NCBI GenBank assembly: GCA_016180805.1
Contig: JACPAM010000027.1
Span: forward strand, 1 to 44,168
DNA length: 44,168 nt
Reading direction: 5' to 3'
DNA from: Deltaproteobacteria bacterium
GTDB taxonomy: Bacteria; Desulfobacterota; Binatia; UBA9968
Under the pieces are notes generated by a model. It was not told the DNA's origin, searched no databases, and saw only the letters and a list, made by a program, of their open reading frames with translations. Position 1 is the stretch's first letter, and every line of letters starts with the position of its first letter. Positions 30,715 through 35,663 of this stretch are shown in pieces. Both the position numbers and the translations under genes were made by a program.

Positions 30715-32013
30715 TCAACGTCGCAGCGTCGAGCCGCTCTCCCGCAGGCGTTTGCGCACCTGGCCCGCCAACTTCGGCGTGACGAGCGCCGTGACCACGA
30801 TGCCGTCCTCCCGATACTCCTCTTCGAGAATCCGTCCCCGCTGGCGCAAGACGAAAAGGAGGTGCGCTTGCGACGGCGGCAAATGCACGCGCAAGCGCTC
30901 CTTGTCCTGATCGAGCACGCGCTCGACCGCGTGGAGCAGCCGATCGATGCCCTTGCCGGTCAATGCCGAGATGGGACACACGTCGAGTGCCCGATCGCCC
31001 GCAAGCCGTGGAAGCGGAGCTTCGACCGCATCGATCTTATTGGGCACCACCAGTCGTAGCGTGTCTCCGGCGCCGATCTCCCTGAGCACGGCCTCGACCA
31101 CCTGAATCTGCTCTTCATAGAGAGGATGGGTCACATCGACCAGATGCAGCAGGAGATCCGCGGTCGTGACCTCCTCCAGCGTGCTCTTGAAAGCCTGGAT
31201 CAAGGCGTGGGGGATCTTGTTGATGAAGCCCACCGTATCCACCACCATAACCTGCTCGCCGTTGGGAAGCCTCAGGCAGCGTATGGTCGGATCCAGCGTC
31301 GCAAAGAGCTTATCTTCGACCACGACTCCCGCTTGGGTCAGCGCATTCATGAGCGTCGACTTGCCCGAGTTGGTGTAACCAACGAGCCCTACGGTCGGAT
31401 AGGGCACTTCGGTGCGCTCCCCGCGCTGCAAGGCGCGCGTGCGCTCCACCGTGGCCAGACGGCGCTTGAGGGTGCCGATCCGCTCGCGCACCCTTCTGCG
31501 GTCCGCTTCCAACTGGGTTTCACCGGGGCCCCGGGTTCCGATCCCACCGCCGAGCCGCGACAGGTGCGTCCAACGCCGCGTCAAGCGCGGAAGCGCATAG
31601 GCGAGCTGGGCCAGCTCGACTTGCAGCTTGCCCTCATTGCTCTTCGCGCGCTGGGCGAAGATATCGAGGATAAGCTGACTCCGGTCGATAACGCGGATCC
31701 GGAAAGCCGATTCGAGACTGCGCTGCTGGGCCGGAGCCAAGTCCTCGTCGAAAACGACCAGGTCCGGCTTGAGCTCCATCAGCCGCTCACGAATTTCTTC
31801 CACCTTCCCGCGTCCGATCAGGGTGGCCGGATTCACGCTTCTCACCTGCTGGGTGAAGACCCCCACCACGACCGCCCCGGCGCTTTGTGCCAGCTTGTCC
31901 AGCTCGTCCAGGCTACACTTGAGCGGAACCCTCCGGTCGGCTGACGGCAGCTCAACACCGACCAGAACGGCCCGTTCCCGAAGGCGTGGATGAATCGACT
32001 GAGCCCGCTTCAA
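30715..32013 (-). CDS. hflX: GTPase HflX
   Basis: Ribosome-associated GTPase that splits stalled or hibernating ribosomes. The N-terminal HflX domain has NPATLIGRGKVEEI and the glycine-rich linker GTRGPGETQLEADRR; the G domain has GYTNSGKST (G1), VVDTVGF (G3) and NKID (G4). I chose the TTG at 32013, which overlaps the dnaE stop as TTGA and gives 432 residues, close to the E. coli length. The open frame runs further into dnaE but has no family match there. Translation is probably coupled to dnaE. Confidence 0.92.
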   Translation of the reverse strand: MKRAQSIHPRLRERAVLVGVELPSADRRVPLKCSLDELDKLAQSAGAVVVGVFTQQVRSVNPATLIGRGKVEEIRERLMELKPDLVVFDEDLAPAQQRSLESAFRIRVIDRSQLILDIFAQRAKSNEGKLQVELAQLAYALPRLTRRWTHLSRLGGGIGTRGPGETQLEADRRRVRERIGTLKRRLATVERTRALQRGERTEVPYPTVGLVGYTNSGKSTLMNALTQAGVVVEDKLFATLDPTIRCLRLPNGEQVMVVDTVGFINKIPHALIQAFKSTLEEVTTADLLLHLVDVTHPLYEEQIQVVEAVLREIGAGDTLRLVVPNKIDAVEAPLPRLAGDRALDVCPISALTGKGIDRLLHAVERVLDQDKERLRVHLPPSQAHLLFVLRQRGRILEEEYREDGIVVTALVTPKLAGQVRKRLRESGSTLRR

Positions 32014-35000
32014 GATTCTTCTAAAGGGGTGACGGTGAGACGATCGCCGAAGAGCCCTTCGAGCGCCTCCCACACCACGCGACCGGAAGCGACCCTTAAG
32101 TGGGCGGGAAGTTCGATCACGGTCTCTCCCTGCTCCGCCGTCAGCAGATGAAGGTAGACGGGGCATGGCCCCGGGTGGGCGAGCAGGGTGCCGTGGAGCT
32201 GCCGCAGCTCTTCCGAGGTCACCTCGGTACCGCGAACGAAAAGATGGACCTCTTGACCGTTCTCCTCTGCTCTCGAATCCACTTCTGCCTTCCGGCTCGA
32301 ACGAGCCTCGCGCGCCGCCTGCGCGATAGGCGTCACCTCGTTCGCGATGATCTGCACCCTCTCTTCGCCCACCTCCAGTCTTCCGTGAACGAGAATGGGA
32401 TCATCGACCACGAGGGTCTCCATGCAGCGCCGATAGAGATCCGGCCACACAATCACCTCCACAAACCCGGTCCGATCCTCGAGCTGAAAGCTCGCGTAAC
32501 GCTCTCCTTTTTTAGTATTCCTCAATCGGAGCGCGGTGACAACACCGCCGACTTTCACCTCGCCGCTGGAAGCCTTCTCCTTCAGTGCGGCGACCGTGCC
32601 GCTGCACACCCGCCGGATCTCCCGCTCGTATTTGTCGAGGGGATGACCGGTGATGTAGAAGCCCAGGGACTCCTTCTCAAACCCCAGCAATTCCTGCGCC
32701 GACCACTCCTCCACTTGAGGATAGGTATCGACCGCCAGCGCCTCGCCGTTGCCGGCATCCCCCAGCGCATCGAAGATGCTGATCTGGTGGCTCTGACGGC
32801 CTTTCTGATACACTTGACCCACTTTCATAGCCTCGTCCAGAGCCGCCATCATGCGCGCGCGCGATACCCCCGTCGAATCGAAGGCGCCGCATTTGACGAG
32901 ACTTTCCACGACCCGCCGGTTGACGACGCTCAGGTCGATCCGCCGACAGAAATCGAAAATGGACTTGAAGCCGCCGTCGCGCTCGCGGCTTTCCAGGACG
33001 ACGTCGACCGCTTTCCCGCCGACGTTCTTGACCGCCGCCAGGCCAAAGCGAATTTTCTCGCTGACCACGGTGAAGTCGGCGCGGCTCTCGTTGATATCGG
33101 GCGGCAGCACCTCGATACCTCTTTCCCGGCACTCCGCCAGGTTCTTGATCACCTTATCCGTGTCACCCATCTCCGAGCTCAACAGCGCAGCCATGAACTC
33201 GACCGGATAGTGAGCCTTCAAATACGCGGTTTGGTAGGAGATCAACGCGTAGGCGGCCGAATGCGACTTGTTGAAGCCGTACCGGGCAAAGGTCTCCATC
33301 TGATCGAAGATCTCGCCCGCCCGTTTGGTATCAATCCGGTTTTTCACCGCCCCCTGGATGAACCGCTCCCGCTGGCTAGCCATCTCCATGGGATCCTTCT
33401 TCCCCATCGCCCGGCGCAAAATGTCGGCTTCGCCCATGCTGTAGCCCGCCAAGCGCTGGGCGATTTGCATCACCTGCTCCTGATAGACGATGACGCCGTG
33501 GGTGTCCTTGAGGATCGGCTCCAGGGCCGGGTCGAGATAGCGGATTTTTTGCCTTCCGTGCTTGCGCTTGATGTATTCCTCGGCCATCCCGCTGTCGAGC
33601 GGCCCGGGACGGTAGAGCGCCAGGATGGCCACGAGATCCTCGAAACCATGGGGCCGGATCTTGACCGTCATTTCCCGGATGCCCCCGCTTTCGAGCTGGA
33701 AGATGCCCGTGGTGTTGCCGGAGCCGAGCAGCCGATAGGTCTTCTTGTCGTCCAGCGCAAGCTCGTCCAACGCGATCGGGACTCCCCGGCTGGTTTGGAT
33801 GAGCTTGATGCAGTCGTGGATCAGCGTGAGCGTCTTTAGACCGAGAAAATCGAATTTGATGAGACCGATCTTCTCCACGCTTTCCATGTCGAACTGGGTG
33901 ACGATCCCGCCGTCCTTATCGAGGAAGAGCGGGAGGGAATCGATAAGCGGGAGATGGGATAAGACCACGCCGGCGGCGTGGGTGGAGGCGTGGCGCGTGA
34001 GTCCCTCCAGCCGCAGGGCGTGCTCGATCAGGGTTCGAACCCTGGGATCGCTTTTCATCAGCCCCTGCAGGCGCGGCTCCAGCTTGAGGGATTCGACCAA
34101 CGGATAGTCGAACCCTTGCTTGGGGGCGGGAACGAGCTTGGCAATGGTGTCGGTTTCGGCGAAAGAAAAACCCAGCGCCCGGCCGACATCTTTGATGGCG
34201 GCTTTGGCCTTCAGGGTTCCAAAGGTGGCGATCTGCGCGACTCTATCCGGCCCGTATTTTTCCTTTACATACTGGATGACCTGATCCCGACCCCGGATGC
34301 AGAAATCGACGTCGATGTCGGGCATCGAGCGCCGCTCGGGATTGAGAAAGCGCTCAAAGAGAAGGCCGTGACGGATCGGATCGAGATCGGTAATCTTGAG
34401 CGCATAGGCGACCAGGCTGCCGGCCGCGGAGCCGCGGCCCGGGCCGACGGGGATGCCGTGATCCTTGGCGTAGTTGATGAAATCGGCAACGATCAGGAAG
34501 TAGCCGGAGAACTGCATCCCTTTGATCACGCCCAGCTCGTAGTTCAGCCGCTCCTCGTAAACCCCGTACCACGGACTTACGTCCGTGGCCTTGGGGCGCT
34601 GCCCTTCGGGGTAGTTCGGAACATTCATCCCCGCACTCACATGCGGGGCGTTCTGTGGTACGGGGTAAACCCTCCTCGATTCGGCATTCTGCAATCCGCC
34701 ACCCGCATTCCCTTGCCTTTGCAGCCTCTCCTCCAATCCGCGCCGGGCCAGCTCGTCAAGATAGTCATCCAGGCTCTTCCCCTCGGGCGGGTCGAAGCGG
34801 GGAAAATGGTAGCGCCCGAATTCCAGCTCCAGATTGCACCGCCCGGCAATCTCCACCGTGCGCTCCACGGCCGCGGAACAATACGCAAATCCCTCGCGCA
34901 TTTGCTCGGCAGACTTGATGAAGAGTTCATCGGTGGCCATCCTGAGCCGATTCTCATCCTGAACGTTCTTGCCCGTTTGGACGCAGAGGAGAACATCGTG

Positions 35001-35663
35001 GGCCTCGGCGTCGCTGCGCTCGCGGTAATGGCAATCGTTGGTCGCGACCACCGGGATCGAGAGCTCCTTGCCCAGCTCGATGATCAACCGGTTGACCTTC
35101 TCCTGCTCCGGGATCTTGTTGTCCTGGATCTCGAGATAATAACGATCCGTGAAGATCGAGGCGTAGGACTGCGCCGCCGCCCGCGCCTTTTCCACCTGCC
35201 CGGCCGACAGCGCCGAGGCCACCTCGCCCTGCAGACAGGCGCTCAGCGCGATCAGCCCCTTGTTGTGCTCGGCGAGCAGCTCCTTATCGACTCTGGGCTT
35301 GTAATAAAAGCCCTCCATGTAGCCGAGGGTCACAAGCTTGCACAGGTTGCGGTACCCGTCCCGGTTCATCGCGAGCAGGATGAGGTGGTGGTTGTACTCC
35401 TTGTTTCCCTTGTCGACGCCCCTGCGCTCGAACCGGCTCGCCGGGGCGACATAAATCTCGCACCCGATGATCGGCTTGATGCCGTGGCGGACCGCGTCCG
35501 TGTAAAACGCAATCGCCCCGAATAGGTTGCCATGATCGGTCATGGCCACCGCCGGCTGCTTGAGATCCCTCACCCGCTCGAGCAGCGACTCGATCTTATT
35601 GGCGCCATCAAGAAGACTGTACTGGGTGTGACAGTGCAGGTGAACGAAACGGGAATGCTCCAT
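32010..35663 (-). CDS. dnaE: DNA polymerase III alpha subunit
   Basis: Replicative polymerase, 1217 residues. N-terminal PHP domain (FVHLHCHTQYSLLDGA, MTDHGNLFG), palm with PGRGSAAGSLVAYAL and the metal-binding PDIDVDFC, fingers with GNTTGIFQLES and YQEQVMQIA, helix-hairpin-helix region, and an OB fold near the C-terminus (VKVGGVVTALRLRNTKKGE...ASFQLEDRTG). Between GLEERLQRQ and YEERLNYEL there is an insertion of about 45 residues (about 323-369) encoded by palindromic DNA with no counterpart in ordinary DnaE. The frame is intact, so the protein is probably active. ATG at 35663. Confidence 0.96.
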   Translation of the reverse strand: MEHSRFVHLHCHTQYSLLDGANKIESLLERVRDLKQPAVAMTDHGNLFGAIAFYTDAVRHGIKPIIGCEIYVAPASRFERRGVDKGNKEYNHHLILLAMNRDGYRNLCKLVTLGYMEGFYYKPRVDKELLAEHNKGLIALSACLQGEVASALSAGQVEKARAAAQSYASIFTDRYYLEIQDNKIPEQEKVNRLIIELGKELSIPVVATNDCHYRERSDAEAHDVLLCVQTGKNVQDENRLRMATDELFIKSAEQMREGFAYCSAAVERTVEIAGRCNLELEFGRYHFPRFDPPEGKSLDDYLDELARRGLEERLQRQGNAGGGLQNAESRRVYPVPQNAPHVSAGMNVPNYPEGQRPKATDVSPWYGVYEERLNYELGVIKGMQFSGYFLIVADFINYAKDHGIPVGPGRGSAAGSLVAYALKITDLDPIRHGLLFERFLNPERRSMPDIDVDFCIRGRDQVIQYVKEKYGPDRVAQIATFGTLKAKAAIKDVGRALGFSFAETDTIAKLVPAPKQGFDYPLVESLKLEPRLQGLMKSDPRVRTLIEHALRLEGLTRHASTHAAGVVLSHLPLIDSLPLFLDKDGGIVTQFDMESVEKIGLIKFDFLGLKTLTLIHDCIKLIQTSRGVPIALDELALDDKKTYRLLGSGNTTGIFQLESGGIREMTVKIRPHGFEDLVAILALYRPGPLDSGMAEEYIKRKHGRQKIRYLDPALEPILKDTHGVIVYQEQVMQIAQRLAGYSMGEADILRRAMGKKDPMEMASQRERFIQGAVKNRIDTKRAGEIFDQMETFARYGFNKSHSAAYALISYQTAYLKAHYPVEFMAALLSSEMGDTDKVIKNLAECRERGIEVLPPDINESRADFTVVSEKIRFGLAAVKNVGGKAVDVVLESRERDGGFKSIFDFCRRIDLSVVNRRVVESLVKCGAFDSTGVSRARMMAALDEAMKVGQVYQKGRQSHQISIFDALGDAGNGEALAVDTYPQVEEWSAQELLGFEKESLGFYITGHPLDKYEREIRRVCSGTVAALKEKASSGEVKVGGVVTALRLRNTKKGERYASFQLEDRTGFVEVIVWPDLYRRCMETLVVDDPILVHGRLEVGEERVQIIANEVTPIAQAAREARSSRKAEVDSRAEENGQEVHLFVRGTEVTSEELRQLHGTLLAHPGPCPVYLHLLTAEQGETVIELPAHLRVASGRVVWEALEGLFGDRLTVTPLEES
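34562..34665. repeat. Multi-hairpin palindromic element inserted in frame in dnaE
   Basis: Terminal inverted repeats CCCCGTACCAC (34562-34572) and GTGGTACGGGG (34655-34665) enclose two more perfect hairpins: CCACGGAC/GTCCGTGG (34569-34588) and CCCCGCA/TGCGGGG (34629-34648), with a small GGGC-GCT-GCCC stem between. The whole can fold as a cloverleaf. It encodes about 35 residues (333-368) of DnaE. A further 50 bp to 34715 looks like intergenic-type filler. Confidence 0.85.

Follow-up and report, generated by a model that had tools for sequence, protein, structure and literature searches.

A dispersed 104-bp palindromic element, probably mobilized in trans, inserted in frame in dnaE of an uncultured deltaproteobacterial lineage

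Introduction

How does a 104-bp palindrome come to lie, in frame, within the gene of an essential enzyme, and is it a native part of that gene? The question arises from a window of 44,168 nucleotides (contig JACPAM010000027.1, assembly GCA_016180805.1) in which dnaE, encoding the DNA polymerase III alpha subunit, occupies positions 32010–35663 of the minus strand. The gene is a single open reading frame of 1217 amino acids which carries the insertion and includes the Pfam domains PHP, DNA_pol3_alpha, finger, HHH_6 and OB. The best-known protein-coding palindromic elements are those of Rickettsia, a genus of obligate intracellular bacteria. The family described here has different ends and belongs to an uncultured environmental lineage classified under Deltaproteobacteria, and one of its copies lies, as in Rickettsia, in the essential gene dnaE. 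The clean empty sites and defined target of this family make both the movement of the element and its tolerance by genes testable by comparison. The case also cautions annotators that recent selfish DNA may account for a loop of 36 residues in an essential enzyme.

Organization and structure of the element

All features described here are on the minus strand. The element (34562–34665) has its left end, CCCCGTACCACAGAACG, at 34665 and its right end, CCGTGGTACGGGG, at 34562. Read on the dnaE coding strand it is CCCCGTACCAC...GTGGTACGGGG with TTTA at either flank, or in full TTTA-CCCCGTACCACAGAACG...GTCCGTGGTACGGGG-TTTA-C. The target-site copy at the left end (34666–34669; TAAA on the plus strand) is a flank kept across copies of the element and corresponds to the single TTTA of the empty site, while the second copy, at the right end (34558–34561), is followed by the preferred C at 34557. 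The left terminal inverted repeat (11 bp, 34655–34665) is nearly invariant in an alignment of 28 copies and pairs perfectly with the right one (11 bp, 34562–34572); across these copies 97.4% of terminal repeat cells are paired. Wider inverted arms of 15 nt (34561–34575 and 34652–34666) match at 93%. Two subterminal hairpins lie inside. The left one, CCCCGCA..TGCGGGG (34629–34648), has perfect 7-bp arms (34629–34635 and 34642–34648), and the right one, CCACGGAC GTAA GTCCGTGG (34569–34588), has perfect 8-bp arms (34569–34576 and 34581–34588) and overlaps the outer stem of the element, with which it competes.

The element folds as DNA with a z-score of -4.97, none of 200 shuffles being as stable, and the corresponding coding-strand RNA gives a z-score of -4.54. 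Together with the arm coordinates and the open 1217-amino-acid frame, this confirms what the original prediction described: a palindrome of 104 bp, bounded by 11-bp terminal repeats and enclosing two perfect hairpins, in frame in dnaE. The predicted size of the addition (104 bp, about 35 residues) needs correction: the insertion itself is real, but the net gain is 108 bp or 36 codons (residues about 333–368, the gene being otherwise intact) because the 4-bp target duplication adds to the element.

Compensatory changes are found at 4 of the 8 helix pairs of the left hairpin, and none of 500 shuffles equals its structure in paired cells or in covariation score. For both subterminal hairpins compensatory changes exceed 500 shuffles as well as slid controls, although kinship among copies can inflate this result. 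Such covariation beyond the controls suggests that folding of a strand is probably important to the element.

An empty site in a close relative

Both sides of the insertion in DnaE align to 29 orthologous loci from the same order, and not one of these 29 DnaE segments contains the element, that of G001, a genome of the same genus, included. In G001 the dnaE site is empty and carries a single TTTA, reading GAGTGTTTAC|GAGGAG; the filled allele reads GAGGAGGGTTTA|CCCC...GGGG|TTTACGAGGAG compared to GAGGAGTGTTTACGAGGAG in G001. The alignment thus gave the outcome anticipated for an insertion: close relatives are without it and one of them provides a clean empty site. The segments on either side had been described as normally joined closely, which is true of the same-order relatives but not of Thermus DnaE, where a long unrelated segment of its own occupies the same loop. 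Similarly, phmmer alignments with E. coli DnaE are interrupted at the loop, the second stretch beginning at query residue 369. Both observations indicate that the insertion lies in a DnaE loop tolerant of changes in length, between PHP and palm.

This length variation, with the Thermus segment and small insertions in relatives, is what would be expected if the loop were simply native and variable and its DNA palindromic by chance. That reading is hardly credible and was rejected: the same DNA occurs in about 19 dispersed copies, no relative carries the insert, and in the relative of the same genus the site is precisely empty. It is also extremely unlikely that assembly or binning of a fragmented draft produced the insertion. 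The genome is indeed in 339 contigs, but the termini are exact, the frame is preserved and both flanks align continuously to the dnaE of relatives within a 44-kb contig.

Since the reading frame is intact and a second clear DnaE match is absent from the genome itself (91% complete), we infer that DnaE with the insert keeps its function.

An older, separate short insertion (34672–34720), a GATTGCG-type repeat encoding about QGNAGGGLQNAESR, adjoins the element. It is common to G001, where it is present in the empty allele of dnaE, and to two genomes of another genus, and is not found in G002, which belongs to the same genus, or in other relatives. The same DnaE loop of G023, a genome from a different family within the order, holds an insertion distinct from this one, and the loop appears to be a hotspot for insertions.

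A dispersed family

The genome under study (G000) includes about 19 copies of the element (19 matches, E≤2.2e-9), and matches occur in 10 of the 58 genomes searched, its own included. The palindromic family that had been postulated for this lineage therefore exists; the insert is neither a loop native to the relatives nor unique to dnaE. Empty alleles exist for copies other than that of dnaE. G023 contains 141 exact CCCCGTACCAC termini, whereas the reversed control occurs once; judging by the agreement of flanks and counts, this genome appears to be Deltaproteobacteria MAG B24D1T2 (JACZXR). Element ends without a partner in G023 were discounted as decayed or contig-edge copies, or as copies interrupted by another palindrome.

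A scan of 84,980 genomes, one per species, revealed related complete elements in Omnitrophica, in an Actinomycetota MAG and in a Thermodesulfovibrionales genome, some of those outside the lineage being only 44–51 bp long. Short (44–51 bp) and variant forms were observed at L143, L154, L193 and L195 in Actinomycetota, Omnitrophica and Thermodesulfovibrionales MAGs. The short and variant forms suggest spread between phyla. Several single-motif matches in other taxa have no second end; they seem to have arisen by chance in ordinary genes and were not retained. No match to the element was found in viral contigs (0 matches), plasmids or Rfam. Separately, residues 1–33 of the reading frame at copy L009 (G000:C225), upstream of the element, match many places in G000, G001, G005 and G007 and are probably part of another dispersed repeat.

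Insertion into other genes

The expectation that the family tolerates genes is borne out by other copies which are also in frame. One lies in a gene for a DUF3108 protein, directly after the signal peptide (117 bp; the site is empty in G001), and another in a fusion of histidine kinase and phosphatase, within the linker; the reading frame of this fusion is unbroken in G002 as well, as is the available part of it in G001. Further examples are found in the leader of a type II secretion pseudopilin (G005) and in RACo of an Omnitrophica MAG. The dnaE, DUF3108 and pseudopilin copies are all read in one same frame (YPVPQNAPHVSAG...ATDVSPWYGV). Copies with at least 25 codons of a spanning reading frame on each side number 18 of 83; most copies, and nearly all of those in G023, are outside long spanning frames.

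The length of the element plus its duplication (104 + 4) is divisible by 3, and four of the six frames of the consensus are open, a number reached by 5% of shuffles; for these two reasons most insertions into genes keep the frame. The 104-bp copies of G000 have a mean of 3.56 of 6 open frames compared to 1.73 in shuffles and those of G023 have 3.42 where 1.72 are expected, whereas the frame-shifting 102-bp form shows 1.2 open frames with 1.2 expected. The excess for the 104-bp form is suggestive only, because palindromy makes the frames of the two strands non-independent.

Has the insertion been co-opted, its peptide or mRNA hairpins regulating DnaE folding, translation or partner binding? The very stable fold of the coding-strand mRNA and the maintenance of an open reading frame would fit such a role, but both the structure and the open frames belong to the whole family, including copies outside genes, and all relatives do without the insert. 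Co-option therefore seems improbable, and the dnaE insertion is most likely neutral selfish DNA rather than an adaptation.

Target site and orientation

Target and orientation statistics are based on 83 distinct copies. With the element read left end first, the left end adjoins TTTA or a close variant (TTCA, TCTA) in 81 of them. One of the two exceptions represents two adjacent elements read as one and the other has TTTG. The right-hand tetranucleotide is followed by C in 69/83 copies. A 5-bp boundary, TTTAC, was considered and rejected: in the empty alleles of L006 the target is followed by T (TTTAT in G002, TTTGT in G001), which favours TTTA. The empty alleles of L005 are ambiguous on this point.

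Certain copies with a deviant target have the same deviation on both sides (L003, TTCA/TTCA; L021 and L091, TCTA/TCTA), while the flanking tetranucleotides are unequal, for example TTCA/TTTA, in L005, L008, L086, L146, L162 and a few others. Among nine cases of sibling palindromes of the CCCC...GGGG type, eight are flanked by identical tetranucleotides, although the tetranucleotides themselves differ (TTAA, TTGA, TTCA/TGAA, TAAG). Within a single sibling family, some copies show TTCA/TTCA and another shows TAAG/TAAG. From these matching deviant targets and identical sibling flanks we infer that the 4-bp target duplication is real.

A different reading is insertion by an IS200/IS605-type Y1 (HUH) enzyme through a single-strand "peel and paste" pathway, in which TTTA would be the 5' target, the right TTTA would be carried by the element and the duplication would be only apparent. 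Orientation locked to TTTA in 81/83 copies, covarying subterminal hairpins at both ends and the occurrence of Y1 genes in these genomes are all consistent with this pathway. However, neither the matched deviants nor the sibling family with two different matched pairs is expected from a fixed, element-borne right end, and we regard this pathway as possible but rather doubtful.

Several of the sibling palindromes are nested within copies of the 104-bp element. Families with CCCC...GGGG ends (CCCCGTTCCAAC, CCCCGTACGATC and CCCCGATCCGG) are nested in the element with 4-bp duplications at L010, L104, L137, L150, L156, L175 and L180, and a CTGTCGAG...TCGAACGACAG-type palindrome interrupts copies at CCAC|AGAACG in L256, L263, L269 and L271. 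A broader proposal, which we consider unlikely though not negligible, is that the element and its CCCC...GGGG siblings belong to a superfamily of mutually nested palindromes present in several phyla, with oriented, 4-bp-duplicating insertion by an enzyme or structure-guided mechanism yet undescribed.

Candidate mobilizing enzymes

Y1 genes, some of RAYT-like length, are present in genomes of the lineage. None of the Y1, IS1380 and DDE_Tnp_1 genes fetched from these incomplete genomes and scanned for element ends was bounded by them, which, for Y1, counts against the single-strand pathway. Two DDE_5 gene matches overlap DDE_Tnp_1 loci already scanned and gave no autonomous element with these ends. 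Derivation from IS1380 was rejected, the resident IS1380 copies having other ends. The element copy L249 (G023:C74) has a disrupted Y1 transposase gene at a distance of about 450 bp; given the density of copies, this is probably a coincidence.

On the sequence evidence we consider it very probable that the insertion is a copy of a non-autonomous, MITE-like, protein-coding palindrome. An enzyme supplied in trans would move the miniature element, whose insertions would share one orientation relative to a TTTA(C) target and leave a 4-bp duplication of that target. In dnaE it would have struck the loop described above, which tolerates changes in length, and DnaE would have gained 36 residues with the frame kept, since 104 + 4 is divisible by 3 and most frames of the 104-bp form are without stops. 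As to the enzyme, the 4-bp duplication tips the balance slightly towards a transposase of the DDE type. The locked orientation (81/83) counts against the MITE-like explanation in this respect: an ordinary DDE enzyme does not account for it, since such a bias is unusual where the transpososome is symmetric, and with the conserved hairpins it keeps the single-strand HUH (Y1) route open. The same explanation is also weakened by the unequal flanks of some copies and by the failure to find, among the transposase genes fetched, an autonomous element with these ends.

Comparison with known systems

MITEs derived from IS200/IS605 carry subterminal hairpins at both ends and insert in an oriented way at a T-rich tetranucleotide. 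The element resembles them in its hairpins near both ends and its insertion on the same side of a fixed tetranucleotide (81/83 copies), but differs in its matched deviant duplications, its long perfect terminal inverted repeats and the lack of a linked Y1 gene. The absence of target duplication characteristic of IS200/IS605 is not observed here, where deviant tetranucleotides match, a few copies being unmatched.

Mobilization as classical REP/BIME repeats by a RAYT transposase is very improbable. These are also palindromic and dispersed, and Y1-family genes of RAYT-like length are present, but REPs are 20–40 nt, extragenic and RAYT-linked, whereas the element is a longer, 104-bp unit with 11-bp terminal repeats, target duplication and some copies within coding genes, and the RAYT-like loci are without its ends.

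The element has the general features of bacterial MITEs: it is short, multi-copy, without transposase coding capacity and has 11-bp perfect terminal inverted repeats, a target duplication and empty sites (TTTA), with unequal flanks in a minority of copies. ERIC, the 107-bp Correia element of Neisseria and the QMITEs of Coxiella are likewise short and non-autonomous, with terminal inverted repeats, a stable fold and open frames that fuse with genes (PMC2229807, PMC10969869, PMC5896051). It is distinguished from these by its CCCCGTACCAC ends, its 4-bp TTTA-type target and an orientation locked to that target.

A close parallel in behaviour is with the palindromic elements of Rickettsia (RPE) and Wolbachia, which are also palindromic, roughly 100–150 bp long, dispersed and inserted without loss of frame into exposed positions of conserved genes. 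The lineage is distant, and the likeness drawn here is one of behaviour. The ATGAC motif reported for RPE-4, RPE-6 and RPE-7 is absent from the element, and the element has a clear TTTA duplication and empty sites, whereas a 2007 review marked the RPE target duplication as unknown (PMC2229807). The RPE trait of a palindrome in frame within conserved genes is seen in the dnaE, DUF3108, kinase/phosphatase fusion and pseudopilin copies. In R. japonica a 114-bp RPE-4 lies in dnaE itself, and RPE insertions were modelled by the authors of that study in solvent-exposed regions (PMC3767692). The comparison with Rickettsia made in the original prediction thus appears apt as an analogy, extending to the same gene.
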